From the NCBI RefSeq assembly GCF_000876655.1, contig NZ_JYCN01000004.1:62001-126000 (forward strand): DNA of 64,000 bases. Reading direction: 5' to 3'. This document shows positions 24,341-41,768 of this stretch, piece after piece. Source of the DNA: Arthrobacter sp. SPG23 (GTDB lineage Bacteria; Actinomycetota; Actinomycetes; Actinomycetales; Micrococcaceae). The position numbers were made by a program, and so were the translations under genes. Positions within the stretch are counted from its first letter, which is position 1; the number at the start of each line of letters is the position of its first letter. Below the pieces are notes generated by a model. It searched no databases. It saw only the letters and a list, made by a program, of their open reading frames with translations, and had not been told where the DNA came from.

Positions 24341-24409
24341 GTCGCGCTGCCTGCTGAGCCGGCGTCGGGCTGCCTGCTGAGCCGGTGTCGCGCTGCCTGC
24401 CGGGTCAGG
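24341..24409. repeat. 23-bp tandem repeat at the 3' end of the alcohol dehydrogenase gene
   Basis: Three copies of a 23-bp unit (GTCGCGCTGCCTGCTGAGCC plus GGC) with increasing divergence; the last copy overlaps the stop codon of the dehydrogenase. Confidence 0.75.
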
Positions 24410-25460
24410 GTGTGAGCAGCACCTTGATGGCTCGGCGTTCATCCATGGCCTTGTAGGCCTCCGGCGCTTCCTCCAGCGGCATGACGGAGTCGAACACGCG
24501 CCCGGGGTTGATGGTTCCGGCCAGCACGTCCGCCAGCAGTTCGGGGATGTAGGTCCGCGCAGGTGCCATGCCGCCCGCGATGGACACGTTGGAGTCGAAC
24601 AGGTACCGCAAGGGGACCTCGCCCCCGCCGGTGGGCACGCCCACGAAACCAAGAGCGCCGCCCGGGCGGACGCAGTGCAGGGCCTGCTCCATGGATTCCT
24701 TGGTGCCCACGCATTCCAGCACTGAGTCGGCCAGCACGCCGCCCAGCAGCGCGCGGACCTTGGCCACGCCGTCGTCGCCCCGTTCCTCCACGATGTCCGT
24801 GGCGCCGAACTCCCGGGCCAGGGCCTGCCGGTCCGCGTGGCGGGACATGGCAATGATCCGCTCTGCCCCAAGCCGTTTGGCCGCGAGAACACCGCAAAGC
24901 CCGACGGCGCCGTCGCCCACCACTACAACGGTGCGGCCGGGCCCCACCTTCGCGGCGAGGGCGGCGTGGTGGCCGGTGGCCATGACGTCGGACAGCGTCA
25001 GCAGGTTGGCTGTCAGTTCAGCGTCAGGTTCGGTGACACCCGGGACCTTGACCAGGGTGCTCTCGGCCAGTGGGACCCGGACGGCCTGGCCCTGGCCGCC
25101 GTCGATCTTGTGTCCGGTGTCGTCCCGGCCGCCCCAGCCGGCCAGGTGCTCGCAGGCAACGGTGACGCCGTTCAGGCACTGCGGACACTCGCCGCAGCTG
25201 ATCACGAAGGGAGCGATGACGAAATCGCCCTCCGCAAGCCCGGTCACGGCCTCGCCGACGCTTTCCACCACGCCGACAAACTCGTGGCCGATGGCTGAGG
25301 GCCTGCGGGTCGGCCTGACGCCGCGGTACGGCCACAGGTCCGAGCCGCAGACGCAGGACGCCGTCACCTTGACCACCACGTCCGTGGGCAGCTGGATGGT
25401 GGGGTAGTCCCGGTCCTCGACCCGGATGTCTCCAGGACCGTGGATGATGGTGGCGCGCAT
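24405..25460 (-). CDS. Zinc-dependent alcohol dehydrogenase (MDR superfamily)
   Basis: A 351-residue medium-chain dehydrogenase. Catalytic zinc ligands are Cys in ASCVCGSDLWPYRG and His-Glu in IGHEFVG. The structural-zinc loop CGECPQCLNGVTVAC has all four cysteines. The Rossmann motif is VVVVGDGAVGLCG. NAD(P)-linked oxidation of an alcohol, or reduction of an aldehyde, is expected; the substrate is unknown. The gene is followed by tandem repeats rather than another gene. Its start follows AAGGAG. Confidence 0.88.
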   Translation of the reverse strand: MRATIIHGPGDIRVEDRDYPTIQLPTDVVVKVTASCVCGSDLWPYRGVRPTRRPSAIGHEFVGVVESVGEAVTGLAEGDFVIAPFVISCGECPQCLNGVTVACEHLAGWGGRDDTGHKIDGGQGQAVRVPLAESTLVKVPGVTEPDAELTANLLTLSDVMATGHHAALAAKVGPGRTVVVVGDGAVGLCGVLAAKRLGAERIIAMSRHADRQALAREFGATDIVEERGDDGVAKVRALLGGVLADSVLECVGTKESMEQALHCVRPGGALGFVGVPTGGGEVPLRYLFDSNVSIAGGMAPARTYIPELLADVLAGTINPGRVFDSVMPLEEAPEAYKAMDERRAIKVLLTP

Positions 25461-26190: not shown

Positions 26191-26922
26191 ATGGTGCGGT
26201 TCGCGACAGGGCGCAAGACGTCGCGCAGGCCGGGGTTGGCAAAGCTCGTGGCCACTGGTGGCGTGGCAACTTGCCTGGCTGTTTGCCTGGCCGTTTGCCT
26301 GGCTGCGTGCCAGGCGAGTCCGGGCGGGCCGGAGCGCTTGGACTCCCCGCCGTCGACCGCTCGCGTCAGCCCCGCGACGGCAACGGCGACGCCTGCCACC
26401 AGCACCCGTCGTCCCATGTCCGCAGAGGCGCAGGCTCAGCTGGACCAGGAGCTGATCCTTGCCGCAAAGGCCAACAACGTGTCGCTTGTCGGTGACCTGA
26501 TCGACCGCGGGGGCAACGTCAATGCCAAGGACGCCATCCAGGACTCCGCGTTCCTCTATGCCGGGGCCGAAGGCTTCAACGAGGTGCTTCAGCTGACCCT
26601 GGCCGCCGGGGCGGACGTGCGCAGCACCAACCGCTTCGGCGGAACGGCGCTGATCCCCGCCAGCGAACACGGACACGTTGACACCGTACGGATCCTCATT
26701 GCTGCCGGCGTGCCCGTGAACCACGTGAACAACCCGGGCTGGACCGCGCTGCAGGAAGCCATCCTGCTCAACGACGGCGGGCCAAGGCAGCAGGACGTGG
26801 TCCGCCAGCTACTCGACGCCGGTGCCGACCCCGGTATTCGGGACCCGCAGGGGAGGACCGCGCTGGAAAATGCCGAGCGGCTGGGGTTCAGCGCAATCGC
26901 GGGGCTGATCCGGGGACGCTAG
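26191..26922 (+). CDS. Ankyrin-repeat lipoprotein
   Basis: A 243-residue protein. The N terminus is basic, then a hydrophobic signal with the unusual internal repetition LAVCLAVCLAACQAS; the lipobox LAAC predicts lipidation of Cys. A Pro/Thr/Ala-rich linker leads to at least four ankyrin repeats (LILAAKANNVSLVGDLIDRG, ALIPASEHGHVDTVRILIAA, ALQEAILLNDGGP, TALENAERLGFSAIAGLI). It probably sits on the outer face of the membrane and binds a partner protein. It is divergent from the response regulator with about 50 bases between starts. A strong terminator follows. Confidence 0.82.
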   Translation: MVRFATGRKTSRRPGLAKLVATGGVATCLAVCLAVCLAACQASPGGPERLDSPPSTARVSPATATATPATSTRRPMSAEAQAQLDQELILAAKANNVSLVGDLIDRGGNVNAKDAIQDSAFLYAGAEGFNEVLQLTLAAGADVRSTNRFGGTALIPASEHGHVDTVRILIAAGVPVNHVNNPGWTALQEAILLNDGGPRQQDVVRQLLDAGADPGIRDPQGRTALENAERLGFSAIAGLIRGR

Positions 26923-26963: not shown

Positions 26964-27005
26964 ACCCGGTCCGACACGCCGGTGCATTCGCGTGTCGGAC
27001 CGGGT
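26964..27005. terminator. Very strong hairpin terminator
   Basis: 16-bp perfect stem ACCCGGTCCGACACGC / GCGTGTCGGACCGGGT with a 10-base loop, 41 bases after the ankyrin gene. It separates that gene from the carboxylase operon promoter region. Confidence 0.8.
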
Positions 27006-27229: not shown

Positions 27230-29158
27230 ATGGAACGGCTCATTAACATCGACAACGGTGGGACGCTGACCGATATCTGTGTCTGGGACGGTGAGAATTT
27301 TTCGTTCACGAAGACTCTCACCACGCCCTTTGACCTCTCCCAGTGTCTCTTCGACGGCATGGCCAAAGCTTCCAAGGAAATCTTCGGTGAAGAGGATCTC
27401 CCCGGGCTTCTGCACTCAACCCGTCACATCCGGTACTCCACCACCCAGGGAACCAACGCGCTCGTGGAGCGCAAGGGTCCCCGGATCGGCATCCTCACTG
27501 ACAGCCCCACACTGGCCGGCAAACTCCGCGAGGGCCAGACGGCAGCTGAGCTCTTTGAAGACCTCGTCGGCACCCGGGTGGCAGTCATCAACGCTGAACA
27601 GGACGTGGAGGAGCTCTCCCAGGACATCGTCAAGCATGTCAACCGGCTGACCACCGACGGCGCCGCACGGCTTGTCATCGCCATGGCGGACCGCAACAAG
27701 GAGAAGGCCGTCAAAGGCGTCCTGCTCCGGAAGTTCCCCCGCCACCTGCTGGGTTCGGTTCCCATGTTGTTCTCCTGGGAGTTCACGCCCGACACCGTGC
27801 AGGCCCGCAGGGTGTGGTCCGGAATCATCAACTCTTTCCTGCATCCCACCATGGAGCGGTTCCTCTACAACACCGAGCACCGGCTGCGCGACCACAAGGT
27901 CAAGAACCCGCTCCTCATCTATCGCAATGACGGAGCTTCTTCACGGGTGGCCAAGTCCGTCGCGTTGAAGACCTACTCCTCCGGTCCCCGCGGCGGCCTG
28001 GAAGGAACCAAGGCACTCTCGGAGGCGTATGGACTCGCACACGTTCTGATGATCGACGTCGGCGGCACCACCACGGACGTCGGCTCGGTCAAGAACTCGG
28101 CCATCTCGACCGATCGCCGGGGTTCCATCCAGGGAGTTCCGGTGTCATTCGAGATGAGCAACGTCCACTCCAGCGGCGTGGGAGGCAGTTCCGTCATCGC
28201 CGTCCGCCACGGCGTCATCACCGTCGGCCCCGAGAGCGTCGGGGCTGCGCCGGGGCCTGCTTGTTTTGGTTTTGGGGGCAAGCAGGCCACCATCACGGAC
28301 GTCAATCTGCTGCTGGGCGTGCTGGATCCGGACACCTACCTCGATGGAGGTTTCAGCCTGGACGCGGAACGCTCCCGCGCCGTCATCACCGAAGCCATCG
28401 CCGAACCTTTGGGGATCACCCTGAATGACGCCCTGATCCGGATGGAGGCTGCCTACTTCGAACGCATGTCGCAGTCCTTCGCTGCCGACGTCGAGGCCGC
28501 GGACGCCACAACGGTTGCCGCGTTCGGGGGTGCCGGACCGATGAGCGCCTGTGGTGCCGCACGGATCGCAGGAGTCCGCCGTGTCCTGGTGCCCAAGATG
28601 GCCGCTGTCTTCTCAGCCTTCGGAATCGGGTTTTCAGACATTGCACAGACCTACGAGGCGAACGTCGCGGGAATGGACGCGGAAAACTTCGGCGCAACCA
28701 AGGAGACGCTGCTGGCCCGGGCTACGCGGGACATGTTCCAGGAGGGCCACGACATCGGCGAATGCCGGCTGGAATGGAACGTGGTGCTGGAAGACGCCGA
28801 AGGCCAGCTGGTTTCCGAACTGCCGTACCTGGCGTCCGATCCGCAGCCGGGCACCAGCGAACACAACACCATGCTGACCCTGACCGCCCGGTACGAACTG
28901 CCGCACGCATCGATCAGGCAGTCCGAATCAGTGGCCAAGACGCCCGCCGTCGCCGCCTCAACCCGAAAGGTCCGCTCCGCCGTGGACAGGGTGGACGAGG
29001 TTCAGGTCTTCGACTTGGACAGCCAAACGGCCGGGGCTTCGGCGGCGGGTCCCGCAATCGTCGAAGGCCCCTACTTCACGGCCCGCGTGCCGCACGGCTG
29101 GGTCTTCGACGTGACGGTCTCCGGTGACCTCATGCTCACAGACATGCTCCAGAAGTGA
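27230..29158 (+). CDS. HyuA-like ATPase subunit (alpha'-type) of an acetone/acetophenone-carboxylase-like enzyme
   Basis: A 642-residue hydantoinase A/oxoprolinase family protein with an AAAGGAG site before ATG. The N-terminal actin-fold phosphate loop is INIDNGGTLTDICVWDG; a second nucleotide-binding segment is LMIDVGGTTTDVGSVKN; FGGAGPMSACGAARIAG is the C-terminal adenosine motif. In this class ATP hydrolysis activates bicarbonate and the ketone enolate by phosphorylation. It is first of five same-strand genes, and a second, longer HyuA-like gene lies two genes downstream. Two different HyuA subunits are characteristic of acetophenone carboxylase, whereas acetone carboxylase has one. The DNGGT loop differs from the usual D-I/V-GGT. 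Confidence 0.8.
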   Translation: MERLINIDNGGTLTDICVWDGENFSFTKTLTTPFDLSQCLFDGMAKASKEIFGEEDLPGLLHSTRHIRYSTTQGTNALVERKGPRIGILTDSPTLAGKLREGQTAAELFEDLVGTRVAVINAEQDVEELSQDIVKHVNRLTTDGAARLVIAMADRNKEKAVKGVLLRKFPRHLLGSVPMLFSWEFTPDTVQARRVWSGIINSFLHPTMERFLYNTEHRLRDHKVKNPLLIYRNDGASSRVAKSVALKTYSSGPRGGLEGTKALSEAYGLAHVLMIDVGGTTTDVGSVKNSAISTDRRGSIQGVPVSFEMSNVHSSGVGGSSVIAVRHGVITVGPESVGAAPGPACFGFGGKQATITDVNLLLGVLDPDTYLDGGFSLDAERSRAVITEAIAEPLGITLNDALIRMEAAYFERMSQSFAADVEAADATTVAAFGGAGPMSACGAARIAGVRRVLVPKMAAVFSAFGIGFSDIAQTYEANVAGMDAENFGATKETLLARATRDMFQEGHDIGECRLEWNVVLEDAEGQLVSELPYLASDPQPGTSEHNTMLTLTARYELPHASIRQSESVAKTPAVAASTRKVRSAVDRVDEVQVFDLDSQTAGASAAGPAIVEGPYFTARVPHGWVFDVTVSGDLMLTDMLQK

Positions 29159-29195
29159 CCCCATACAACCAGCAAGAAAACAGGTGAGACACGCT

Positions 29196-29648
29196 ATGCG
29201 AATTCCAATGACGGAATATCTGATCATCGATCTCGACACCGAGCGGTGGAACTGCAAGGTATGCGACCACGACCTCGGCGACGCCAGAGGCAACTACAAG
29301 GAGGGGACACTGGTCTACGACCGGGACCCCACCGAAATCCACCAGTCGATCCTGGACCCGGAGAAGTACGAATTCACGTTCGCTCCGGACCCCACCTTCT
29401 GCCGGATTCTCGAGTTCTACTGCCCGGGTTGCGGGACACAGCTGGAAACGGAGTACGTACCGCCGGGACACCCGCCCACAGTGGACATGCTGTGGGACAT
29501 CGACTCGCTCCGCGAAACCTGGATCAAGCGGGGCACCAAGCCTGAGGTCGTCATCAACTACGGACCCGGCGAAGAGGCCGTTGCCGATTTCACCCCGGCC
29601 CTCGGCTCCTACAACACCCACAACCATTCCCCCCATTCGTTCAGCTAG
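29196..29648 (+). CDS. Carboxylase gamma subunit, zinc-ribbon type (AcxC/ApcB-like)
   Basis: A 150-residue protein, MRIPMTEYLIIDLDTERWNC and onward. Two Cys pairs, CKVC and CPGC, about 65 residues apart suggest a zinc ribbon, as in the small gamma subunit of acetone and acetophenone carboxylases. YKEGTLVYDRDPTEIHQSIL and TEYVPPGHPP are also family-like. It is expected to be a structural part of the cytoplasmic complex. It sits between the two HyuA-like genes, the order reported for acetophenone carboxylase genes (small subunit second). Confidence 0.82.
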   Translation: MRIPMTEYLIIDLDTERWNCKVCDHDLGDARGNYKEGTLVYDRDPTEIHQSILDPEKYEFTFAPDPTFCRILEFYCPGCGTQLETEYVPPGHPPTVDMLWDIDSLRETWIKRGTKPEVVINYGPGEEAVADFTPALGSYNTHNHSPHSFS

Positions 29649-29675
29649 TACTTGGAATAAAGGAGACCACTGGTC

Positions 29676-31802
29676 ATGAAACGAATCTCCGTCGACATCG
29701 GCGGCACATTTACCGACTGCTTCTTTGCCTGGGAAGACCAATACGTTGAAGCAAAGGCGCTCACAACGCACCACAACCTGGCCCAAGGCTTCAATGAAGC
29801 ACTCGACCTCGCCTGCTCCCGGGCCGGACTGGACCGGGACCTCGTCCTGAAGGAAGTCGATTCCGTCCGCTATGCCACCACACTCGGCACCAACGCCCTG
29901 ATCGAAGGCAAAGGCCCGCGTGTGGGGGCACTGGTCACCCACGGCTTCGAGGACACCATCCCGCTTTCCCGCGGCCGTGGCTACGGAGAAGGCCTGGATC
30001 CTTCCAAGCAACAGAACATGCCTGATGCCACCCGCCCTGACCCGCTCGTGCCCCGCGCGCTGATCCGGTCGGTGAAGGAGCGGATCAACTCGGCCGGCAA
30101 CGTGGTCGTTTCACTGATGGAAGACGACGTCCGCACCCAGGTGCGGGAACTCGTTGACGCCGGGGCGGAGGCGATCGTGGTCTCCCTGGTCAACTCGACC
30201 GAGAACCCGGTCCATGAGCAGCAGATCCTGGAGATCATCCTGGACGAGTACCCGGCCCACGAGCTCGGGGCGATCCCCGTCCTGCTGGGAAGCCAGGTGT
30301 CGGGCCGAAAAGGCGAGTACGTCCGTGCGACGTCGACGATCGTGGACGCGTTCCTGCACGAGATCATGTTCCACGCGCTGGGACAGCTCTCCAACAACCT
30401 GCGCACGTCCGGTTACGACAAGCCCATGCTGGTGATCCACAACTCGGGCGGCATGGCGCAGTCCAACTCGACGGATGCCCTGCAGACTATCCACTCCGGT
30501 CCCATCGCCGGCGTGGGCGCTGCCCAGCACCTGGCTGACAGCACCGGTCTGGGAAACGTGATTTCGACGGACATGGGCGGCACGTCCTTCGACATCGGGC
30601 TGGTCCCGGAAGGCGGCGTCAAGCACTACGACTTCCAGCCGACCATCGGCCGCTGGCTGGTATCCGTTCCCATGATCCACCTTCTGACGCTGGGTGCGGG
30701 TGGCGGTTCGATTGCCAGTTATGACCGCATCCACCACGCAGTCCAGATCGGGCCGGAATCAGCTGGCTCGGATCCGGGCCCCGCCTGCTACGACCGCGGC
30801 GGCCTCCGCCCCACAGTCACGGACGCCGACCTGGTCCTTGGGTACCTGGACCCGGACAACTACGCCAACGGGTACATCAAGCTGAACAAGAAACGTTCCG
30901 CCTACGCAATCGACGAGGTCCTCGCTGATGACCTGAACATGGACACCATCCAGGTCGCCAAGATCATCAAGAATGCTGTCGACGAGCAGATGGCGATCGG
31001 AATGGCCAAAGAACTGCGGGTCCGGGGATACCTTCCGGAAGACTTCACCATGCTGGCCTATGGCGGCAACGGCCCCCTGCACGCCTGCGGCATCGCAGAT
31101 CACGCCGGCATCCGCAGGATCCTTGCACCGCCGTTTTCCTCGGTATTCTCGGCCTGCGGCGCCGGCAACATGAAACCCCTGCACATCCACGAACGCGGTT
31201 CCCATGTGGTGCTGTACAACCCAACAGACCGCAGCCTCTACCAAAGCTACGACGAGCTGAACAACGTCATCCAGGAGCTGGAAGCCAAGGGCAAGGAAGA
31301 CCTGATCCGCCAGGGCTACGACGCCGCCGACATCCGCTACAGCCTCGAAATGGACATGCGCTACGGCAACCAGCTGGTGACCACCGCCGTCGTTTTCGAC
31401 ATCAACCGCGTGAACGGCGTCGCCGACGTGCTTCACCTGATCCGGACGTTCTCGGACATCTATGGCAAGCGCTATGGTGCTGGCAGCCAGGCTCCCGAGG
31501 CCGGCATTCGGGCCCAGACCGTGCGGGTGTCGTCCTACGTGGACGGGGACGTGGTCAAGTTTGACTCGATCGACTCCGGGCATGACAGGACCATGCCCAG
31601 CCCGGTGGGCACCCGGCAGGTCCACTTCGTGAAGATCGACGGGGCCGTCGACACTCCGGTGTACGACGCGGAGGCCCTCCACCACCAGCACGTCATCCAC
31701 GGACCGGCCATCGTCACCACGGAAAACACCACGTACCTGGTGGAACCGGGCTGGCGCCTGGAACCGACATCGCAAGGAGCCGTGTGGTTCCTCAAAGACT
31801 GA
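29676..31802 (+). CDS. HyuA-like ATPase subunit (AcxA/alpha-type) of the carboxylase
   Basis: A 708-residue hydantoinase A family protein. The phosphate loop is ISVDIGGTFTDCFF, followed by YATTLGTNALIEGKGPRVG, STDMGGTSFDIGLVPEGGV and YGGNGPLHACGIADHAG. Length is close to AcxA (about 717 residues) of acetone carboxylase. It should bind ATP and phosphorylate substrate and/or bicarbonate before transfer to the HyuB-like subunit. An AAAGGAG sequence lies ten bases before ATG. The gaps to its neighbours are 27 and 62 bases, so a single operon is likely. Confidence 0.85.
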   Translation: MKRISVDIGGTFTDCFFAWEDQYVEAKALTTHHNLAQGFNEALDLACSRAGLDRDLVLKEVDSVRYATTLGTNALIEGKGPRVGALVTHGFEDTIPLSRGRGYGEGLDPSKQQNMPDATRPDPLVPRALIRSVKERINSAGNVVVSLMEDDVRTQVRELVDAGAEAIVVSLVNSTENPVHEQQILEIILDEYPAHELGAIPVLLGSQVSGRKGEYVRATSTIVDAFLHEIMFHALGQLSNNLRTSGYDKPMLVIHNSGGMAQSNSTDALQTIHSGPIAGVGAAQHLADSTGLGNVISTDMGGTSFDIGLVPEGGVKHYDFQPTIGRWLVSVPMIHLLTLGAGGGSIASYDRIHHAVQIGPESAGSDPGPACYDRGGLRPTVTDADLVLGYLDPDNYANGYIKLNKKRSAYAIDEVLADDLNMDTIQVAKIIKNAVDEQMAIGMAKELRVRGYLPEDFTMLAYGGNGPLHACGIADHAGIRRILAPPFSSVFSACGAGNMKPLHIHERGSHVVLYNPTDRSLYQSYDELNNVIQELEAKGKEDLIRQGYDAADIRYSLEMDMRYGNQLVTTAVVFDINRVNGVADVLHLIRTFSDIYGKRYGAGSQAPEAGIRAQTVRVSSYVDGDVVKFDSIDSGHDRTMPSPVGTRQVHFVKIDGAVDTPVYDAEALHHQHVIHGPAIVTTENTTYLVEPGWRLEPTSQGAVWFLKD

Positions 31803-31864
31803 TCCCGTGCCCACGGATCCCATCCACACCTTCCAGCTACTCCCATTGAAGGAGCTCGACAGCA

Positions 31865-34204
31865 ATGACGCTTACAGCAAATGAACCCAGCACTTCCGGC
31901 ACGTCCGGCCCAGCCGGAGAAGCCTCCCAGCCGCTGACTGCCCAGGAGCAGCAGTGGGTGGACCAGTTCATGGACGAAACAACCCTGTTCCTCGGCCCGG
32001 ACCCGGCCATCATGCGAAGCCACCAGATCACGTCCCGCTCCGCCTACGAGGAAGAGTGCATCTCCAAGGGCGTGGACCCCATCAAAGTGGACCGCATCCG
32101 TAAGCGCCTGGCCGGCGCCCTGGATGAGGGCTACGAAATGTGCGAGGCCATGGGTGCCGCTCCAGGTGCCAAATGGGGGGACCTGACGACGGCGATCTAC
32201 ACCGCCGAAGGGGACGTCACGTACCTGTCATGCCACGGCGTGATCGCGTTCTCGGCGATCTTGCACCACCCGATCCGCTACATCATGAAGTACTGGAAGG
32301 ACGAGCCGACGGTGGGGATCAACCCCGGCGACGGATTCATCCACAATGACGCCTGGTACGGAAACGTCCACAACACTGACCAGTCCATGATCATGCCGAT
32401 CTTCCGCGGGGGAAAGATCATCGCCTGGGTCGCCGCGACCATCCACGAAGGCGAAAACGGGGCCTGCGAGCCCGGCGGCATGCCGTCAGGCTCCGAGACC
32501 CCGTTCGACGACGGACTCCGGATGTCCCCGTTCAAGATCGTTGAGAAGGGCGAGCTGCGCCGGGACCTGCTGACGTTCCTGCAGCACTCGGTTCGCGACC
32601 CCAAGCTGCAACTGGCTGACCTCAAGGTCAAGATCGGTGCCGTCCAGCGGATCCAGGAGCGGGTTGACAGCATCATCGACGAAGTGGGAGTGGAGACCTT
32701 CGTCGCTGCCCTGCGGGTCACCGTTGAAGACGTGGAACAGGAAGTCAAGCGCCGCATCAGTGAACTGCCGGATGGGACCGTGTCCTTCAACCAGTTCATG
32801 GACTCCACGCTCAAAGAGAACATCCTCATCAAGTTCGCCTGCAAGGTGACGGTCAAGGGTGACAAAATGACCGTGGACTTGAGGGGCACAGGCCCCGAAA
32901 TCCTCAACCGGGCCATCAACTCCCCGCTGTGCTCGGTCAAGTCGATGATGATGCAGGCGATCCTGGCATTCTGGTGGCCTGACCTGCCCCGCTGTACTTC
33001 GGCAATGTCGCCCATCGACATCATCTCGGATGAACACACGTGGGCCGACGCCGGTTACGACGCACCGATGGGGCAGTCGCTGCAGGCCTCGTTCCGGGGA
33101 TTCTCTGCCCTCCAGACAGCCTTTGCCAAGATGCAGTTCTCCAACCCGGAGAAGTTCTCCAATGTCCTGGCTCCGTGGTTCAACCAGATCAACACCTTCC
33201 TGTGGGGAGGCCTGACCCAGCACGGCGACCAGGTAGGAAACCTGTGTGCCGACCTCAACGGCATGGGCGGCGGTGCCAAGGCATTCCGCGACGGTGAAGA
33301 CGCCGTCTCACCGCTGTTCTGTGCCATGGCGGACACCGCTGAACAGGAAGTCATGGAAGAGGAAGTACCTTTCATGCAGCTGGTCAGCAAGCGGATCGTC
33401 CGGGACAACCAGGGCTTCGGCAAGAACAGCGGCGGCATGGGCTACGAGATGATTGTTGCCGCCGAGGGAACGCCGATGTGGGGCTTCATGACCGTGACCT
33501 CGGGGTCCAAGTTCTCGTCCGTCACCGGAATGTTCGGCGGCTACGGCTGCAGCACAACACCGCTGGCCATGGTCAAGGGCATCAACATCTACGACGTGAT
33601 CCGCAAGGACTCCAGCAAATTCGATTTGTCCATGGAGCGGATCATGAACGAGCAGCCCTATGAGGGCGGTAAGTACACCACTTCCCATATGGGGCTGCAG
33701 TTCGACGTCGCCAAGGACGGCGAGATGTACATGATCGCCCAGGGCTCCGGCGGGGGGTACGGCGACGTTCTGGAACGCGATCCGGAAGCGGTGGCCAAGG
33801 ACCTGGAACTCGGCCGCATTTCACCGAAGGTCGCCACCAGCATCTACGGCGTCGTCTGGGATCCCGAAACCTTCGTGGTGGACCAGGAGGCAACTGCACG
33901 GTTGCGCCACGACTCACGTCAGGCGCGGATCGCCCGCGGCAAGCCGTACAAGGAGTTCCTTGAGGGCTACGTGAAGACCGAGCCCCCGAAAGACCTGCTC
34001 TACTACGGGTCCTGGGGCGACGACACGGAGGAGCTCACCGCCACCCACTTCACCAACAACGGACCGGAACGGGTCAAGGCGACCATCGACAAGCTGCCGC
34101 TGATCATGCTTCCGGACCGCAGGGAAGTGAAGATCAGCGCACTGGAGGACCGGATCCGCGAGCTCGAACTCAAGCACGGGGAAGTTGTCCACCGTAAGTC
34201 CTAG
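31865..34204 (+). CDS. HyuB-like catalytic subunit of the carboxylase (AcxB-like)
   Basis: A 779-residue hydantoinase B/oxoprolinase family protein, close to the 776 residues of acetone carboxylase AcxB. The conserved metal-site region is GDGFIHNDAWYGNVHNTDQS (His160, Asp162 and His169 are candidate ligands), followed by GGKIIAWVAATIHEGENG. The C-terminal part carries YEMIVAAEGTPMWGFMT and a helical end DRIRELELKHGEV. In acetone carboxylase this subunit binds Mn and joins the phosphorylated enolate to CO2, giving acetoacetate. Ribosome binding site GAAGGAG. It follows the ATPase gene by 62 bases. Confidence 0.86.
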   Translation: MTLTANEPSTSGTSGPAGEASQPLTAQEQQWVDQFMDETTLFLGPDPAIMRSHQITSRSAYEEECISKGVDPIKVDRIRKRLAGALDEGYEMCEAMGAAPGAKWGDLTTAIYTAEGDVTYLSCHGVIAFSAILHHPIRYIMKYWKDEPTVGINPGDGFIHNDAWYGNVHNTDQSMIMPIFRGGKIIAWVAATIHEGENGACEPGGMPSGSETPFDDGLRMSPFKIVEKGELRRDLLTFLQHSVRDPKLQLADLKVKIGAVQRIQERVDSIIDEVGVETFVAALRVTVEDVEQEVKRRISELPDGTVSFNQFMDSTLKENILIKFACKVTVKGDKMTVDLRGTGPEILNRAINSPLCSVKSMMMQAILAFWWPDLPRCTSAMSPIDIISDEHTWADAGYDAPMGQSLQASFRGFSALQTAFAKMQFSNPEKFSNVLAPWFNQINTFLWGGLTQHGDQVGNLCADLNGMGGGAKAFRDGEDAVSPLFCAMADTAEQEVMEEEVPFMQLVSKRIVRDNQGFGKNSGGMGYEMIVAAEGTPMWGFMTVTSGSKFSSVTGMFGGYGCSTTPLAMVKGINIYDVIRKDSSKFDLSMERIMNEQPYEGGKYTTSHMGLQFDVAKDGEMYMIAQGSGGGYGDVLERDPEAVAKDLELGRISPKVATSIYGVVWDPETFVVDQEATARLRHDSRQARIARGKPYKEFLEGYVKTEPPKDLLYYGSWGDDTEELTATHFTNNGPERVKATIDKLPLIMLPDRREVKISALEDRIRELELKHGEVVHRKS

Positions 34205-34250
34205 CCCGTTTCGGGGCCTCCCGGCCCGGGACCGCAGCAACTCACGAAGC

Positions 34251-34295
34251 CTTCAGCGCCGCATCCTCCCCATCCAGGACGGTGCGGCGCTGAAG
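34251..34295. terminator. Stem-loop inside the operon, possible attenuator or processing site
   Basis: 13-bp perfect stem CTTCAGCGCCGCA / TGCGGCGCTGAAG with a 19-base loop, followed by TCCTTT, between the HyuB-like gene and the fifth gene. A partial terminator or 3'-end stabiliser here would lower expression of the fifth gene relative to the first four. Confidence 0.6.
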
Positions 34296-34328
34296 TCCTT
34301 TATCAGCCAAAGTATGGAGAAAGATGTC

Positions 34329-35150
34329 ATGACCACTTCCACAGCCACCACCCTCGCCAGCGTTGTTGCCTCCCCTCCGTCCGGGCGGCCGAAAGCCGTG
34401 GTGTTCGACCACCACGAGTACGCAGCTTCCGTGATTCTTCGCGGGCGGCCCGTCCCGTGGGACAACGCCACTGCGTACGCGGCTTTCTTCGCCCAGGCAC
34501 AGGGGCTGCTCCGGCCGGACGTGGCGCTCCTGGACCTGAACCGTTTGTACGGTCACCTGACAGCCGGCGACACCAGGCTCGAGGCCGGCATGGCGGCCAG
34601 ATCCCGGACAGGGTTCGCGCTGAGGACTTTGCTGGGGGACGAGGACCTTAACCGGGCGGTGCTGGACTTCGTCACCGTGTTCGCCAAGACAGCCCGCCAA
34701 CCCGTGGTGCTGCGCATCCCGTCGCCGATGATGTGGCTCAGGGGCACGCATCACCTGTCGGGTGCGGAGGACGCCAGCGACCTCGACGCCGACAACGCCG
34801 AGAATGCCTCCATGTATGTCAGTGACTGGCTGCGGGCGTTCGCGGGACTCCCCATCGCCGGCCTCCTGCTGGACAACCGGACCCCTGCCGGGGCCTCCAG
34901 CGGCGTGCACGTTCCGTTGGAGGCCTACACCCCGATTGCCAATCTGGCCGGCAACTACCGTTGGACGCTGGGGCAGCTCGACGACGACCAGGCGCGTCTG
35001 CACGGGGACGCTGCCGTTGGCGCCAATATTCCTGCAGGGTTCTGGCTGGAGCGGGACGTCGAACTCCCTGCCGGTGACTTCTACCTGGGCGAGATCCCCG
35101 GCGCCGCTTCGCCGGAGGTGGTCCTGGCCAGGCTGGAAATCCTGGGGTGA
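34329..35150 (+). CDS. Unassigned fifth gene of the carboxylase operon, candidate epsilon-like subunit
   Basis: A 273-residue soluble protein starting after GGAGAAAG. I recognise no domain. Visible segments: VVFDHHEYAASVILRGRPVP, LRPDVALLDLNRLYGHLTAG, VVLRIPSPMMWLRGTHHLSG, IAGLLLDNRTPAG and NYRWTLGQLDDDQARLHGDA. The gene order (HyuA-like, small zinc subunit, HyuA-like, HyuB-like, then this) parallels the five acetophenone carboxylase genes, whose fifth product (about 34 kDa) is a loosely bound essential epsilon subunit. Equivalence is inferred from position and size (about 29 kDa), not from sequence. It ends 11 bases before the stop of the convergent regulator. Confidence 0.55.
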   Translation: MTTSTATTLASVVASPPSGRPKAVVFDHHEYAASVILRGRPVPWDNATAYAAFFAQAQGLLRPDVALLDLNRLYGHLTAGDTRLEAGMAARSRTGFALRTLLGDEDLNRAVLDFVTVFAKTARQPVVLRIPSPMMWLRGTHHLSGAEDASDLDADNAENASMYVSDWLRAFAGLPIAGLLLDNRTPAGASSGVHVPLEAYTPIANLAGNYRWTLGQLDDDQARLHGDAAVGANIPAGFWLERDVELPAGDFYLGEIPGAASPEVVLARLEILG

Positions 35151-35161
35151 CTGACCCCGGG

Positions 35162-37966
35162 TTACTTCGGCGGGAGCAGGTGCCGGCGTCGGGCCTCTAC
35201 GACGCAGGCCCTTCTGTCGCTGACGCCGAGAGTGTTGAACAGGCTCTTGAGATACCACTTGACGGTGTTGATGCCCAGATGCAGCTCCTGGGCGATTTCG
35301 CGGTTGGACCGATCCTTCTCGACAAGGCGCAGGATCATCTGTTCGCGTTGCGACAGGCCTGGTTCCGGAACAGTGGTGCCCGCGCCGGTAGTGGGAGAGA
35401 GTGCCTCTGCAGGCCACCCGGCATCGCGGGTGGTCCTGGCCTGGGCATCCAGCCGGATGAGGATACTGAGGAAACGCGCTAGCTCGTGGCTGCTCCCTTC
35501 CGCGACGGGCTCGCGCCGGAGCCTGGCCGAGGTGGCGCGCACCAGCTCCAGGCAGCTTGCGCCGCCATCAAGCACGGGCCGGACCAGGCCCAGCCGGGAA
35601 CACGTCTCCAGGGCCGGCCGGAGCGTTGATTCGGCTTCCCCGCGGTTCCCCGCCTGTTCGAGGGCGGCCGCCAGCAGGATACGGGCATTCAGCTCTGCCC
35701 TCGGCCCCAGATAGGCTGCGGCCCGCGACAGCAGTCGGCGGGCCCCGTTCACCGTGTCCAGCTTGCCGGGGGAGTCCGGGCCTTCGTGCCCCGCGTCAGC
35801 CATGGCGGACCGCAGCTGCGTGGCCAGCCGGATCTGGTGCTTGGTCTCGGCCAGCCCTTCCAACCGTGGTCCGGTGGTGTCCGCCGGGTCCCGGGCGGCG
35901 CCCACCAGGGCACCATGGGGTTCGGCGTTGACAGGCCGGGGGCTGATTCCCAACTGCACGCGTTCCAGATTCATGGCCAGTTTGAGCCGGCTGAGGCCGA
36001 GACTGTCGGCCACCAGATCGCCTTCATCGAGTATTTCCCGCGCCCGCGGCGTGTCCCCCCGGAGTGCTTTGATCCTTGCCAGCGTCCCGTACGTGGACAA
36101 CATGAAGTCCACCACCCCGCCTTCGGAACCCAGCTCGCGGGTTTCCTCCAGCAACTTCTCGGCTTTGTCGAGTTCGCCGCGTTCGTACAGGAGCTGGCCC
36201 ATCATCGCTCCTGCCAGCCGCGCCGCATGCGAGTACCGCCCTGCCTTGCGGCGGCCGAGTTCCACCGCGGACGTGAAGTGCTGGTCCACGCTGTCCAGAT
36301 CGAGCAGGGCGTAGGCGGCAAGACCTGCGAAACAGTGTCCGTACACGCCGCTGAAGGGGCCGGAGGTGAGGCCGTGGAACTTCGCGGCCCAGCGCTGTTG
36401 TTCCAGTGCGAGAGGGTAATCGCCGTCGTGGATCTTCTTGAACGTTGAGACATTCGCGGCCACTGAGACGATCCAGGGCCGGAGCAGGTCCGCCTGGGCG
36501 AAGCACCTCTCGTCCAGTTCGTCCACGTGATTCACCCGGTCGCTGTACATGTCGATGCAGCTCTGCACCACCAGCCCTTCGACGTCCAGTTCAAAACGGT
36601 CGTGATCGGTCAGCGTCGCATCGGAGGGCATCACGGCTTCGGCCCGGTCCAGGGCACTCTGCGCCGCTGCAGATTGGTGGAGCAGCGTATGGGCCCACGA
36701 TATCGCCGTCTGGAGACGGGCTTGGCCGGCCACGTGGTCAGCGGGGATCTTGCCGACAAGAGCCAACAGGGTGGACATGCTGGAGTGTTCCACCAGCCAC
36801 ATTGCACGGAATTCGACAATTTCCACCGCGAGCTCAACGTCCCCGGCGGCGAGCGCATGGTCCACTGCGTCGCTGGGGAACCCGTTTTCCGAATACCAGC
36901 GGGCCGCGATCAGGTTCAATTCCTTGGTCCGGCCCGGGTAATCGCGCTCCAGGCGGCGGCGCAGGTAGTCCTCAAACAGGTGGTGATAGCGGTACCACGT
37001 GCCGTCCTCGTCAAGCGGCTGCAGGAAAAGGTCCTGTGCCTGGATCTTCTCCAGCATTGCCTGGCCCAGTTCCACCCCCGAGAGGGCTGACGCCAGCCCC
37101 GCGCACAGCCGCTCCGGAACCGACGTCATCAGGAGGAAGTCCAGCGTCTCGGGGTCGAGGGTGTCGAGGACGTTTTCAGCCAGATATTCACCGATGGACG
37201 CGTGCCTGCCGGAGAGCCGTTCGATCAGCTCGGAGGCCTCGCGGTGGTCCCTCAGGGACAGGGAAACCAGCTGCAACGCAGCGATCCAGCCCTCGGTCGT
37301 CCGGTGGAGGCTGGCCACGTCTCCCGCGTCCAGATCGAGCCGGTTGATGCCTACCAGGAAGTCCTGGGATTCATTTTCATCGAACCTCAGCGCGACCGCG
37401 TCCACTTCGACCAACTGGTCCCGCACCATCAGCCGGCCCAGTGGCAGGCCCGAGCGCGTACGGCTGGTGATGATGAAGGACAGATGTGAACCGCCGGCTT
37501 CGAGCAGCCGTTCCACCACCGCCCGGGTTCGGGGCTCCGTGACCAGGTGCCAGTCATCCAGGGTGATGACGATGTCCCGGCCGGCTTCATCGATGGCGTT
37601 GATGAGTGCGGGAACCACGTATTGCTCGGCGTCGTCGGGACGCTCCTCCAGCAACTGCTGCAGTTCCTCCTCGAGTCCGGGCCAGGCTTTCCGGATTGCC
37701 TGCAGCAGATGGGAAAGGAACCAGATGGTGTTGTTGTCGTCCCGGTCCAGGGACAACCAGACGGTAACGAGGCCCTGGGAGGCCAAATTTTCCATCCATT
37801 GGGCGGCAAGGGTCGACTTGCCAAAGCCAGCGGGGGCATGGATCAACGCCAGCCGCCGTTTCCGGTCCGAGTGGAGCATCTCGGTCAGCCGGGTGCGATG
37901 AACCCACTGTCCAACCGGCTCGGGCGCGCGGAACTTGCTTGACGCACTGGGTGGTCCTGTCGGCAT
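35162..37966 (-). CDS. MalT-like LuxR-family ATP-dependent transcriptional activator
   Basis: A 934-residue STAND-type regulator. The ATPase domain carries Walker A HAPAGFGKST and Walker B IVITLDDWHL. A long winged-helix/TPR sensor region follows, and the C-terminal LuxR HTH is LSQREQMILRLVEKDRSNRE ... INTVKWYLKSLFNTLGV. Ligand and ATP binding should drive oligomerisation and promoter activation. The start after AAGGAGGTGGCGG is far better than the longer frame. Placed convergent to the carboxylase operon and downstream of the thiolase on its own strand, it is the obvious candidate activator of the island. Proteobacterial acetone carboxylase is instead controlled by the sigma54 activator AcxR. 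Confidence 0.88.
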   Translation of the reverse strand: MPTGPPSASSKFRAPEPVGQWVHRTRLTEMLHSDRKRRLALIHAPAGFGKSTLAAQWMENLASQGLVTVWLSLDRDDNNTIWFLSHLLQAIRKAWPGLEEELQQLLEERPDDAEQYVVPALINAIDEAGRDIVITLDDWHLVTEPRTRAVVERLLEAGGSHLSFIITSRTRSGLPLGRLMVRDQLVEVDAVALRFDENESQDFLVGINRLDLDAGDVASLHRTTEGWIAALQLVSLSLRDHREASELIERLSGRHASIGEYLAENVLDTLDPETLDFLLMTSVPERLCAGLASALSGVELGQAMLEKIQAQDLFLQPLDEDGTWYRYHHLFEDYLRRRLERDYPGRTKELNLIAARWYSENGFPSDAVDHALAAGDVELAVEIVEFRAMWLVEHSSMSTLLALVGKIPADHVAGQARLQTAISWAHTLLHQSAAAQSALDRAEAVMPSDATLTDHDRFELDVEGLVVQSCIDMYSDRVNHVDELDERCFAQADLLRPWIVSVAANVSTFKKIHDGDYPLALEQQRWAAKFHGLTSGPFSGVYGHCFAGLAAYALLDLDSVDQHFTSAVELGRRKAGRYSHAARLAGAMMGQLLYERGELDKAEKLLEETRELGSEGGVVDFMLSTYGTLARIKALRGDTPRAREILDEGDLVADSLGLSRLKLAMNLERVQLGISPRPVNAEPHGALVGAARDPADTTGPRLEGLAETKHQIRLATQLRSAMADAGHEGPDSPGKLDTVNGARRLLSRAAAYLGPRAELNARILLAAALEQAGNRGEAESTLRPALETCSRLGLVRPVLDGGASCLELVRATSARLRREPVAEGSSHELARFLSILIRLDAQARTTRDAGWPAEALSPTTGAGTTVPEPGLSQREQMILRLVEKDRSNREIAQELHLGINTVKWYLKSLFNTLGVSDRRACVVEARRRHLLPPK

Positions 37967-38105
37967 CCGCCACCTCCTTGTGGTCCGGCGTTTGCCGGGA
38001 ATGCATTTGGCCCTCTGAAATCCTATGGGAACCGCGGCATCATAGACAGCGGTGACCCCTTCCTGCTCTTTCCTGCGGTTCCCGGACCCCCGCAGGTTGG
38101 TTCCC

Positions 38106-39292
38106 CTAGACCGCCTCAAGCACGCTGACGTAGTTGGCGATGCCCACTCCACCCATGTTCTGCACGGCGGCGCGGCGCGGGGTGGCCAGCTGCATGGCGC
38201 CGGCGGTTCCGGTGAGCTGCATGGCGGCGATCACGTGCTGGGAGACGCCGGTGGCACCCACGGGGTGGCCCTTGGCCTTGAGCCCGCCGGAGACGTTGAT
38301 GGGCAGCTTGCCGTCCTTGAAGACCCAGCCTTCCTCAATAGCGCGGGTCCCCTGGCCGGGTTCGGTCAGTCCCATGGCCTCGTACATCAGCAGCTCGGCG
38401 ATGGTGAAGCAGTCGTGCACTTCGGCGAAGTCCAGGTCTTCAAGCCCGACGCCGGCCATCCCCAGCGCGCGCTGCCAGGACGCCCGCGTCGCCGCAAACG
38501 CCGTGGGGTCGCGGCGCTCGGCGGGGAAGAAATCGTTCGCATGGCCGAAGCCGGCGAGCCGCACCGGGGCGGTGGCCCCGCCGGTGGGCGAGACGGAAAG
38601 CACGACGGCGGCGGCGCCGTCGGACACGGGGGAGCAGTCGGTGCGGCGCAGAGGGTCGGCCACCATCGGATTCTTGTCCGAAACGGTGCGGCAGAATTCC
38701 TCGCCGAGGTCCTTGCGGAGCTGGGCGTAAGGGTTGTCCACGCCGTTGCGGTGGTTCTTCGCGGCGATCGTTCCCAGGACGTCGGATACCGGTCCATAGC
38801 GCTTCTCGTAATGCTTGGCCACCTCGGCGAACAGGCCGGTGAAGCCGGTGGTGGAGGTTTTGCCGGCCATGTCGTAGTCCGCGCCGAGCAGGGCCGCCCC
38901 CCACGACGTCGGCGCCGGCCTGGGTCATCTTCTCGGCGCCGATCACGAGGACGGTCTTCGCGGTACCGGCCAGCAGGGACTTGGTGCCCTGCTGGAACGC
39001 GGCCGATCCGGAGGCGCAGGCGTTCTCCACCCGCGTGGACGGGACGTTGGCGAGCTGCTCCGAGACCTGCAGGGCCAGCGAGGACGGGAACGCCAGCGGC
39101 ATCATGCCGGAGTTGAACTGGCCGAGGTAGATCTCGTCAATCTGGCCCGGCTCGATCCCGGCGTTGCCGATCGCCTCCGTGGCAACCTGGACGATCAGGG
39201 ACTCCAGGGTCTCGTCCGTGAGTTTGCCGAAGCGGCTGTGGCCCCAGCCGGTGAGCAGGATATCTTTTTCCGAATTGTTCGCGCAGGCTCAT
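38106..39292 (-). pseudogene. SCP-x-type acetyl-CoA acetyltransferase/thiolase, two apparent frameshifts
   Basis: Reading with two bases removed gives a 394-residue thiolase of normal length: [20 protein letters not shown], the catalytic Cys region ENACASGSAAF, then HDCFTIAELLMYEAMGL and GGLKAKGHPVGATG. The first break is an extra A in a five-A run (39265-39269 as T on the plus strand). The second is an extra G in a six-G run (38897-38902 as C). Both sit in homopolymers, so assembly error is as likely as real decay. The ATG overlaps the CoA-transferase stop as ATGA, indicating translational coupling. Role: acetoacetyl-CoA + CoA -> two acetyl-CoA. SCP-x-like, unlike PcaF. Confidence 0.85.
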
Positions 39293-39978
39293 GCTGTGGC
39301 TCCTTCAAGGGTGGGGGTTGAGTCGAGGGAAGGGGCGACGTCGAACGCGGCTTCGGTCTTCCCGCGGATCTCGTCGACGGTGACGCCGGGGGCGAGGCGG
39401 GTCAGCGTGAGCTGCCGGCCGCCGTCGTCCGTCTTGTCAAGGTCAAAGACCGCGAGGTCGCTGATGATCCGGTCAACGCAGCTCAGCCCGGTGAGGGGCA
39501 GGGTGCATTCGGTGACAATCTTGGCGGTGCCGTCCTTGGCGTTGTGTTCGGTGAGGACCACGACGCGCGGGGTGCCGGCCACGAGGTCCATGGCGCCGCC
39601 CATGCCCTTGACCATCTTGCCCGGGATGGTCCAGTTGGCGAGGTCGCCGCTGCCGGAGACCTGCATGGCGCCGAGGATGGCCACCTTCACGTGGCCGCCG
39701 CGGATCATTCCGAAGGAGGCGGCGGAGTCGAAAATGCTGCCGCCGGGCAGCACCGTGACCGTTTGCTTTCCGGCGTTGATCAGGTCCGCGTCCTCCTCGC
39801 CCTCGTAGGGGAAAGGTCCCATGCCGAGCAGGCCGTTCTCGCTCTGGAGGACGACGCGGACGCCGTCGGGCAGGTTGTTGGCCACCAGCGTGGGGATGCC
39901 GATGCCGAGGTTCACGTAGTCGCCGTCGTTCAGTTCTTCGGCCGCGATGGCAGCCATTTCATCCCTGGTCCAGGCCAT
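39289..39978 (-). CDS. scoB: 3-oxoacid CoA-transferase subunit B
   Basis: A 229-residue protein. The active-site Glu lies in [52 protein letters not shown] and [16 protein letters not shown] are the conserved class I CoA-transferase blocks. With subunit A it moves CoA from succinyl-CoA to acetoacetate (or to 3-oxoadipate in the PcaIJ homologues). The linked carboxylase makes acetoacetate the likelier acceptor. It lies between subunit A (about 85-base gap) and the thiolase (ATGA overlap). Confidence 0.9.
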
Positions 39979-40063: not shown

Positions 40064-40783
40064 TCAGACGGGAACCGGCTCGGCGGCGCGGGAGCGTACC
40101 GTGCGCTGTTCGATGTCCTTGACCCTGTCGCTGGCCTGCACCAGGCGCTGGACGAAGACGCCGGGGGTGATGATGTGGTTGGGGTCCAGCTGGCCGGGCT
40201 CCACGATCACCTCCGCCTCGGCGACCGTCACCGCACCGGCCGTGGCCACCACCGGGTTGAAGTTGCGGGCGGTGTAGCGGTAGATCAAATTGCCGTCGGT
40301 ATCTGCGGTGTGCGCGTGGACCAGTGCGACGTCGGCCAGGATGGCGCGCTCCTGGACGTACGTTTCGCCGTCGAACTCCGCGAGCGGCTTCCCCTCGGCG
40401 ACGAGGGTGCCCACACCGGTCTTGGTGAAGAACGCCGGGATGCCGGCGCCGCCGGCGCGGAGGCGCTCGGCGAGGGTGCCCTGCGGGGTGAACTCCACTT
40501 CCAGCTTGCCGGCGAGGTACTGCTCGGCGAAGAGCTTGTTCTCGCCCACATAGGAGGCGATCACCTTGCGGACCTGTCCGGCTTCGATCAGGATGCCGAG
40601 GCCTTTGCCGTCCACGCCCATGTTGTTGGACACCACGGTGAGGTCCCTGACGCCGGAATCGCGGACGGCCTCGATCAGGTCCGCCGGGATGCCGCTGAGG
40701 CCAAAGCCTCCGACGGCGAGCGTCATGCCGTCCCGCAGTACGTCCTGGAGCGCGGCGGCCGCGCCGGATTTCACCTTTGACAT
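40064..40783 (-). CDS. scoA: 3-oxoacid CoA-transferase subunit A
   Basis: A 239-residue protein with [57 protein letters not shown] and VELTPQGT-like [20 protein letters not shown], all diagnostic for class I CoA-transferase A subunits. First gene of the subunit A / subunit B / thiolase unit, possibly continuing into the MalT-like regulator. A perfect inverted repeat lies just upstream of the start and probably operates its promoter. Divergent from the IclR gene. Confidence 0.9.
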
Positions 40784-40944: not shown

Positions 40945-40982
40945 TAGTTTGGGTGGATCTAACGCAAAGTCCGAGGAAAAAG

Positions 40983-41768
40983 ATGTCTTCATTACCGGTC
41001 CAGGGCGCACAAGTCGTCAGCCGCGTCGCGTCCCTGCTGCGCATTGTCGGACGGAAACCGGAAGGTTCCCCGCTCGTGGAACTCGTCAGAGAATCCGGGC
41101 TCACGCGCCCCACCGTGCACAGGCTGCTTTCCTCCCTGGCTTCCGAGGGCTTGCTGGACCAGGACCCGCAGAGCGGCAACTGGGTGCTAGGTCCTGAGAT
41201 CCTGCTGATGGGGTCCGTGGCCTCAGCCCGCTTTCCGCTCGAGGACATTGCCCGGCCCAGCCTCCGCCGGCTCGCTGAGGAGACCGGCGAGAGCGCCTTC
41301 TTCTCCATCCGCCGCGGAGCGGAAACCGTGTGCCTGCTCCGCGAGGAAGGCAGCTTCCCGGTGCGCTCCTTTGTGCTGCATGAAGGCGTCCGGTTCCCGC
41401 TGGGGGTGGCATCCGCCGGGACCGCGATCATGGCGTTCCTGCCCGAGGCGGAGCAGGAGGAGCTGCTGGCCGGCTGGGCCGCACATGCCGGCAGTTTTGC
41501 GGCGGCTCACACCGAGGCGCTGGTCCGGGAGAACCTGGCCAAGACCCGGCAGGCCGGCTACTCGGTCAACCCCGGGCTGGTACTGGAGGGCAGCTGGGGC
41601 ATGGGTGCAGCGGTCTTCGACCAGCGCGGGCGTCCGGCCTGGGCGTTGTCCCTGACCGGAATCGAGCCGCGTTTCAAGGGGGAGCGGCAGGAGACGCTGG
41701 GCCGCCTCCTGATGGAAGAAGCGCACCGGATCTCCACGCTGCTGACGCGGTCGCCGGGCCGAGCCTGA
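40983..41768 (+). CDS. IclR-family transcriptional regulator
   Basis: A 261-residue protein. The N-terminal winged HTH is VSRVASLLRIVGRKPEGSPL ... GLTRPTVHRLLSSLASEGLL, followed by the IclR effector domain (SAFFSIRRGAETVCLLREEG, VRFPLGVASAGTAIMAFL, QAGYSVNPGLVLEG). Start after GAGGAAAAAG. Divergent from the CoA-transferase/thiolase unit with two matching palindromes between them, which makes it the likely local regulator, probably responding to a 3-oxoacid or its CoA ester (inference). Confidence 0.9.
   Translation: MSSLPVQGAQVVSRVASLLRIVGRKPEGSPLVELVRESGLTRPTVHRLLSSLASEGLLDQDPQSGNWVLGPEILLMGSVASARFPLEDIARPSLRRLAEETGESAFFSIRRGAETVCLLREEGSFPVRSFVLHEGVRFPLGVASAGTAIMAFLPEAEQEELLAGWAAHAGSFAAAHTEALVRENLAKTRQAGYSVNPGLVLEGSWGMGAAVFDQRGRPAWALSLTGIEPRFKGERQETLGRLLMEEAHRISTLLTRSPGRA

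Follow-up and report, generated by a model that had tools for sequence, protein, structure and literature searches.

A 64,000-nucleotide stretch of the genome of Arthrobacter sp. SPG23 (the window; positions 62,001 to 126,000 of contig NZ_JYCN01000004.1) carries at 27230-35150, on the plus strand, five genes that run in the same direction in the order alpha'-gamma-alpha-beta-epsilon, which is the order of apcABCDE, the genes of acetophenone carboxylase (Apc). By its architecture this operon belongs to the Apc-type ketone carboxylases, as a deep sub-branch of the Apc branch. We consider it probable, from sequence comparisons, that the operon encodes an ATP-dependent, presumably biotin-free ketone carboxylase of Apc architecture, with acetone as its most likely substrate and butanone or similar short alkyl ketones as possible ones; the substrate is suggested by the gene context, by the alternation of this operon with Acx among Helicobacter genomes and by an altered ketone pocket. 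Together with its relatives (the clade below), the operon forms a real, well conserved and widespread sub-branch, probably of acetone carboxylases that evolved apart from the three-subunit acetone carboxylase Acx.

Architecture of the operon

The first gene (27230..29158, 642 aa) encodes the alpha' subunit, an ApcA-like ASKHA (HyuA) kinase predicted to act on bicarbonate. Its open reading frame (ORF) was listed from 27068, and the ATG at 27230 is the likely start because AAGGAG lies upstream. It is followed by the genes for an ApcB-like gamma subunit with a zinc ribbon and two CxxC pairs (29196..29648, 150 aa), an ApcC-like alpha subunit, the predicted ketone kinase of the ASKHA type (29676..31802, 708 aa), an ApcD/HyuB-like beta subunit (31865..34204, 779 aa) and an ApcE-like epsilon subunit, predicted to be a UROD-type TIM barrel (34329..35150, 273 aa), for which the ATG at 34329 is the most likely start. 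All five lie on the plus strand. PF05378 and PF01968 were found in both HyuA-like proteins and PF02538 in beta, and gamma matches PF08882 (acetone carboxylase gamma) with 133.6 bits. A Pfam search returned no second PF08882 gene in this genome, which has a single further HyuB gene, there fused to a HyuA domain. Promoter and terminator prediction on the operon gave site numbers close to those in shuffled sequence. Upstream (5') of the operon, a perfect 16-nt inverted repeat at 26964-27005 may terminate the preceding gene.

The closest PDB relative of all four core subunits is the acetophenone carboxylase of Aromatoleum aromaticum (5l9w), ahead of acetone carboxylase. The bit scores against Apc and Acx are 280 (with the 5l9w alpha subunit, ApcA) and 124 for alpha', 119 and 35 for gamma, 513.8 (ApcC) and 301.3 for alpha, and 302.7 (ApcD) and 143.7 for beta. 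Over the aligned parts, identity to Apc reaches 33.2% for alpha', 55.6% for gamma (over 108 residues of 5l9w chain C), 38.2% for alpha, as against 29.4% to Acx, and 32.9% for beta. Coordinates, domains and PDB relatives thus support a five-subunit ketone carboxylase in acetophenone carboxylase gene order, as proposed by an earlier, sequence-only reading of this DNA. The name acetophenone carboxylase itself is unwarranted by the NCBIfam rule, since the scores stay below the equivalog cut-offs of ApcA-D (331.8 of 1250, 136.7 of 250, 552 of 1500 and 328.9 of 1500 bits).

To judge membership we used the features given in the relevant passages of Weidenweber et al. 2017 (PMC5214803), namely gene order, ATP motifs, fingerprint and cysteines. 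The ATP motifs were found in both kinases of the window, alpha' showing DNGGTLTD, DVGGTTTD and GAAPGPA, and the R/KERiDsxG fingerprint is present in alpha as KERINSAG and absent from alpha'. Across the clade, the fingerprint pattern fits 74 of 87 alpha rows and the four-cysteine pattern 86 of 87 gamma rows. A strict phosphate-1 pattern fits 64 of 87 alpha rows; it also fits 86 of 87 alpha' rows, a count that is not independent as the phosphate-2 site fits the same pattern. In beta, the metal ligands D65, H123, D126 and H148 of ApcD align with D106, H169, D172 and H194.

HyuA and HyuB domains are also those of ATP-dependent hydantoinases, oxoprolinases and lactamases, and alpha has a weaker relation to the caprolactamase model (436.7 of 1000 bits). 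That the operon encodes such a hydrolytic enzyme and not a carboxylase is scarcely credible: it has a gamma subunit (PF08882), a second kinase and epsilon, none of which belongs to the two-gene hydantoinases as described in the pertinent part of PMC5214803, and the trees separate it from them. A clustering of both HyuA subunits with hydantoinases, named by the sequence-only reading as a refutation, did not appear in the sequence matches of both or in the tree of alpha. We rejected a hydantoinase identity on the presence of gamma, alpha' and epsilon.

The fifth gene encodes an ApcE-like protein

Epsilon gave no sequence match in Pfam, NCBIfam or the PDB, and a Pfam scan of the epsilon family produced two stray matches, each in 1 of 60 members. 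Its homologues occur at the same place in 70 of 80 loci, counts of 80 being here and below those of the best 80 among at least 352 confirmed loci (71-98% identity, contig scan). The ten loci without it are six of the eight named Helicobacter loci and four contig-edge loci that end right after beta. An AlphaFold2 model built from 60 of the 71 sequences (the window and 59 of the 70) reached a predicted local distance difference test (pLDDT) value of 95.2 and a predicted template modelling (pTM) score of 0.92. When this model was submitted to Foldseek, the top three matches, and the sole ones with an E-value under 0.001, were chains of 9fou, the structure of ApcE released in December 2025; the best had an E-value of 5.1e-6, a TM score of 0.52, a root-mean-square deviation of 6.7 and 13-15% identity. 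With VIA-align, 9fou scored Z 13.6, level with UROD-type barrels at Z 13-14, so that Z alone cannot separate ApcE from UROD. Since the model matches the fold of 9fou and the gene stands where apcE does, ApcE-like is the best name for the fifth gene, although its sequence is barely recognisable. Several conserved positions (D27, P131-S132-P133, D182 and R184) are located where predicted barrel strands end, so that epsilon may have a working pocket rather than serve as a mere scaffold.

Phylogeny and distribution

We built a tree of alpha by a careful method from 56 rows, comprising the window, 27 of 90 clade loci and references, with midpoint roots for drawing only. The clade has a support of 100/100 without the archaeon Halorientalis and of 84/44 with it, and two loci of genome G176 (L045 and L059) branch next to it. 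The clade, G176, the Aromatoleum Apc and other Apc-type sequences (39 rows) are set apart from Acx and the others with 100/100. A beta tree of 55 rows, made by a quick method with long branches flagged and a midpoint root, has a similar shape, with a support of 84 for the joint Apc branch and Halorientalis beside a G176 locus. The two G176 Apc-type operons have a T/I/H pocket pattern like that of the clade, and no epsilon homologue was found in their fetched stretches.

These trees bear on the idea, contained in the sequence-only reading, that the operon represents an intermediate class between Apc and Acx. Subunit length is a mixed criterion: beta, with 779 aa, does match acetone carboxylase (776 in Acx and 684 in Apc), as that reading had held of the subunit sizes in general, whereas otherwise only one pocket position, with Ile or Leu as in Acx, recalls this enzyme. 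An intermediate is very improbable given that the alpha tree places the clade inside the Apc branch and splits it from Acx with 100/100, that the beta tree supports the joint branch with 84 and that alpha is closer to Apc than to Acx in identity. It was rejected on the alpha tree and the identities, beta length alone being weak evidence.

The best 80 loci include Arthrobacter, Cryobacterium, Rhodococcus, Mycolicibacterium, Nocardia, Gordonia, Corynebacterium, Streptomyces and Brevibacterium and, beyond Actinomycetota, Psychrobacter, Marinobacter and gastric Helicobacter; the closest named relatives of the window operon are from Arthrobacter, including Arthrobacter sp. SO3. Plasmid copies are found in Rhodococcus jostii RHA1 (pRHL2, 83%), Rhodococcus DK17 and R. 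qingshengii and, more distant, in Neorhizobium petrolearium (52%), Cupriavidus necator N-1 (49%) and the archaeon Halorientalis (40%). With Helicobacter, Psychrobacter, Marinobacter and the plasmids of Neorhizobium, Cupriavidus and Halorientalis, the clade is wider than the actinobacterial class first supposed. The gene order is the same across the 80 loci as far as contigs reach; genes are missing at contig ends in L084, L104, L120, L121, L124 and L146, and the alpha' gene is split over frames in L149 and L154. The order is not due to chance, since homologous genes recur in 80 loci. Own genome counted, the epsilon gene occurs in 14 of 198 same-genus genomes, and PF08882, which does not separate the Apc from the Acx type, in 4 of 59 relatives and 22 of 396 phylum genomes. 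This patchy presence fits frequent horizontal transfer. Clade members are annotated piecemeal, as hydantoinase, acetone carboxylase gamma or hypothetical protein. In one same-genus genome (G031, L037:12516-14869), beta lies in two overlapping frames.

Gene context

Behind a MalT-like regulator of the LuxR family (35162..38152, minus strand, start uncertain; 345 bits with NF003420, cut-off 537, and a C-terminal GerE domain), the window has a further gene set on the strand opposite to the operon. It consists of an SCP-x-type thiolase whose frame is broken twice (38106..39292, minus strand; PRK07516, 429.5 bits on its C-terminal part) and of subunits B (39289..39978, minus strand; TIGR02428, 313 bits, cut-off 243.55) and A (40064..40783, minus strand; TIGR02429, 259 bits, cut-off 128.5) of a 3-oxoacid CoA-transferase. 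An IclR-family regulator (40953..41768, plus strand; PF01614 and PF09339) follows, and on the other side of the operon stands a zinc alcohol dehydrogenase that could feed in 2-propanol or a secondary alcohol (24405..25460, minus strand; PF08240 and PF00107). The transferase and thiolase seen in the sequence-only reading are therefore real, given these scores.

To evaluate the recurrence of this context, we fetched stretches of up to 10 kb on either side of each locus, some of them shortened by contig ends. The controls came from 32 loci of the phylum (L036-L067): 4 proved to be clade members, 13 served as Acx-type and 10 as other Apc-type controls, and the five loci L062-L065 and L067, which are weak or short, were left out. 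A CoA-transferase lies within about 10 kb of 36 of the 80 clade loci (17 of the 30 genus-level labels, which include higher-rank names of metagenome-assembled genomes), near none of the 13 Acx-type or 10 other Apc-type controls, and in none of the five loci left out. As the 4.70 Mb genome of the window has three CoA-transferase pairs, chance alone would place one in roughly 1-2% of such stretches. In Mycolicibacterium, Nocardia, Gordonia and Corynebacterium the transferase genes follow the operon on its own strand; in Helicobacter they precede it, and in Neorhizobium they face it. Thiolases accompany 32 of 80 loci, SCP-x and acetoacetyl-CoA-type (AtoB) ones 16 each (11 and 7 genus-level labels, respectively), and either a transferase or a thiolase is near 40. 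A DhaR-related regulator (127.5 bits, cut-off 551) was found in 49 loci and a zinc alcohol dehydrogenase of this group in 19, and none of the 23 controls has either, while MalT-like and IclR-family regulators occur in 16 and 14 of the 80 loci. The transferase counts and the Helicobacter context described below support the wiring to acetoacetate-type metabolism that had been proposed, and make acetone or butanone, also named there, plausible substrates.

Two observations concern Rhodococcus plasmids. On pRHL2 of R. jostii RHA1, pieces resembling CoA-transferase subunit A, apparently a remnant, come right after epsilon (L069:18698-19826). A plasmid of Rhodococcus aetherivorans (NZ_CP106984.1, 59983-62552) carries a joined thiolase and both transferase subunits, 78% identical to the window set, and the carboxylase is absent from that match.

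Acx-type or Apc-type operons in Helicobacter

Among 34 Helicobacter genomes, 15 have an Acx-type operon, 16 the Apc-type clade operon and 3 neither, and none has both. The two Acx loci compared have thiolase-scoA-scoB in front and Acx after an interval of nearly 3 kb; in the six compared loci of the Apc type, the genes read thiolase-scoA-scoB-apcABCD(E). Between the two types, scoA and scoB share 62-63% and 57% identity and the thiolases 41-43%. For H. pylori, the thiolase/sco/acx cluster led to the proposal of a pathway from acetone to acetyl-CoA, and mice were colonised more poorly by an acxB mutant, as reported in the part of PMC2244623 that treats this cluster. The H. bizzozeronii genes HBZC1_00410-00460, called acetophenone carboxylase 1-4 and lying beside scoAB and a thiolase, correspond to the clade operon by their description in the corresponding section of PMC3234257, whose authors, citing low similarity to acxABC, proposed a possible "alternative pathway".

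In the named loci, epsilon is found in L136 and L149, the latter with alpha' split over two frames. According to the enzyme section of PMC5214803, the Aromatoleum Apc requires epsilon; its loss in Helicobacter may mean either that some of these enzymes can do without it or that the operon is in decay in this genus. Broken beta genes belong to L189, L190, L191 and genome G620, some of them with other operon genes in pieces too. Genome G619 combines an intact gamma of the Acx type with another gamma-like match that is weak (E-value 3.8e-4) and interrupted by stops; it was counted as Acx-type. It had been considered as an Acx-to-Apc "fossil", a candidate that we dropped as no Helicobacter Apc-type protein matched the surrounding 17-kb stretch (L185).

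Ketone pocket and candidate substrates

The proposed acetophenone pocket of ApcC comprises seven residues, of which P285 and I333 are kept and five are altered almost throughout the clade when read by alignment: L81 to T (86 of 86 rows), F281 to I (84), N282 to H (86), Q344 to H (85) and T345 to L (85). In the window alpha these are T72, I272, H273, H335 and L336. The position of F281 holds L or I in all 10 Acx rows. In the alpha' pocket, E248 is changed to S in 84 and K281 to D in 86 of 86 rows.

These changes are relevant to the possibility of a true carboxylase of acetophenone or another aryl ketone, whose benzoylacetate-like product would obtain its CoA from the CoA-transferase and then be split by the SCP-x thiolase. 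The core subunits and their order are those of Apc, with epsilon added by its fold; the window thiolase weakly matches BbsB (109.6 of 750 bits), some of the carriers originate from oil or petroleum soil, and a cluster of R. ruber Chol-4, likened to ours by name alone, was called acetophenone carboxylase by its authors in the portion of PMC6498646 concerned. However, the NCBIfam Apc cut-offs are far from reached, the pocket is changed to T/I/H/H/L, the Helicobacter thiolase-scoA-scoB set precedes either the clade operon or Acx, and no CoA ligase occurs among the neighbouring genes scanned (18922-43040). An aryl ketone is thus an unlikely substrate.

Larger aliphatic or cyclic ketones (butanone, pentanones or isophorone-like compounds), with acetone as a secondary substrate, have a small but appreciable chance of being correct. 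SCP-x thiolases could suit alkyl-branched 3-oxoacyl-CoA; the alcohol dehydrogenases of 19 loci are uninformative on chain length. Acetoacetyl-CoA-type thiolases are nevertheless equally frequent, and the context in Helicobacter is that of acetoacetate.

Several points weigh against acetone carboxylation by the clade. For no clade member did the openly licensed literature yield a result on activity, induction or growth, and the pocket was read from an alignment to Apc at 38% identity. Neither a CoA-transferase nor a thiolase is present in the fetched stretch of 40 of the 80 loci, in part because of contig ends, and a transferase accompanies 1 of 14 Cryobacterium and 0 of 6 Rhodococcus loci. Transferases of this family also act on 3-oxoadipate (models named pcaI/pcaJ_sco). 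Thiolases also flank other Apc-type loci (SCP-x 5 of 10, AtoB 3 of 10) and Acx-type loci (AtoB 4 of 13), so that the CoA-transferase alone discriminates. The SCP-x type of the window thiolase may suit other substrates, and its gene differs by two one-base length changes in short runs from three relatives with an open frame, which may be sequencing error or decay. Finally, six of the eight named Helicobacter loci (L132, L133, L135, L137, L140 and L142) are devoid of epsilon while their four core genes are open, and among the 16 Helicobacter genomes with the clade operon, beta is in one frame in 12 and broken in 4.

Proposed function and mechanism

With these points weighed, acetone or a similar short alkyl ketone is the substrate that we favour. 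By analogy with the Apc model in the mechanistic part of PMC5214803, from which the conversion of 2 ATP to 2 ADP and the role of epsilon are also taken over, alpha would phosphorylate the ketone enol(ate) with one ATP and alpha' bicarbonate with another. The core would be built from beta, which carries the D/H/D/H metal site, and gamma, which carries the zinc ribbon. The UROD-type barrel of epsilon would dock and couple the two kinase sites, bringing CO2 from carboxyphosphate together with the enol phosphate. The linked CoA-transferase could then turn the resulting acetoacetate, or a homologue of it, into a CoA ester for cleavage to acetyl-CoA by a thiolase, and the linked zinc alcohol dehydrogenase may make the ketone from 2-propanol. 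The ATP-to-AMP mode of Acx, as given in the relevant part of PMC5543143, is less likely here because the second kinase is intact.

If the clade consists of acetone carboxylases, it would give Gram-positive bacteria a CO2-dependent way of using acetone, one reaction would run at two different costs (ATP to AMP or 2 ATP to 2 ADP), and the swap in Helicobacter would be a natural experiment on the purpose of epsilon and of the second kinase. Acetone carboxylase activity was reportedly found in Rhodococcus rhodochrous B276 by Clark and Ensign in 1999, with polypeptides of about 85, 74 and 16 kDa, sizes that would fit beta, alpha and gamma here but do not enter into our argument. We see roughly even chances that nature has two acetone carboxylase architectures, the three-subunit Acx and a five-subunit Apc-type one that spans Actinomycetota and replaces Acx behind thiolase-scoAB in about half of the gastric Helicobacter genomes, several of these enzymes maybe being free of epsilon.

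Other genes of the window

A 498-aa ORF with C-terminal ankyrin repeats (25426-26922, plus strand) overlaps a response-regulator-like ORF on the opposite strand (25528-26724, minus strand). Both have Pfam scores, and either may be the real gene. Further upstream, a 919-aa protein similar to PEP synthase and rifamycin phosphotransferase (19891-22650, minus strand) scores under the curated cut-offs of the 25 families listed.

Comparison with known systems

ATP-dependent hydantoinases, 5-oxoprolinases and caprolactamase have the HyuA and HyuB domains in common with the window operon. They consist of two subunits only, without gamma, alpha' and epsilon, as their treatment in PMC5214803 indicates.

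The nearest system is ApcABCDE of Aromatoleum aromaticum (core 5l9w, epsilon 9fou), with which the operon shares the five subunits, the gene order, both ASKHA kinases with their motifs, the alpha fingerprint, the four-cysteine gamma, the metal ligands and the fold class of epsilon. It differs by an identity of 33-56% in the core and of 10-15% for epsilon in structural alignments, by a longer beta, by changed ketone and alpha' pocket residues and by scores under the NCBIfam cut-offs. A CoA-transferase and a thiolase are nearby in the window, whereas the Aromatoleum enzyme has a benzoylacetate-CoA ligase instead. At the time of PMC5214803, a single Apc-type enzyme was characterised, and the passage on this branch calls it highly diverse and asks for caution in assigning functions.

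With AcxABC (Xanthobacter 5svb and 5m45; H. pylori acxABC), the clade shares the thiolase-scoA-scoB context in Helicobacter, the length of beta and one aliphatic pocket residue. Acx differs by its three subunits, its order alpha-beta-gamma, a single kinase subunit and the conversion of ATP to AMP, following the descriptions of the enzyme in PMC5214803 and PMC5543143, and its alpha and beta subunits form a separate clade in our trees. The clade studied here is large and tightly conserved, and its enzyme is probably a second natural route to acetone carboxylation.

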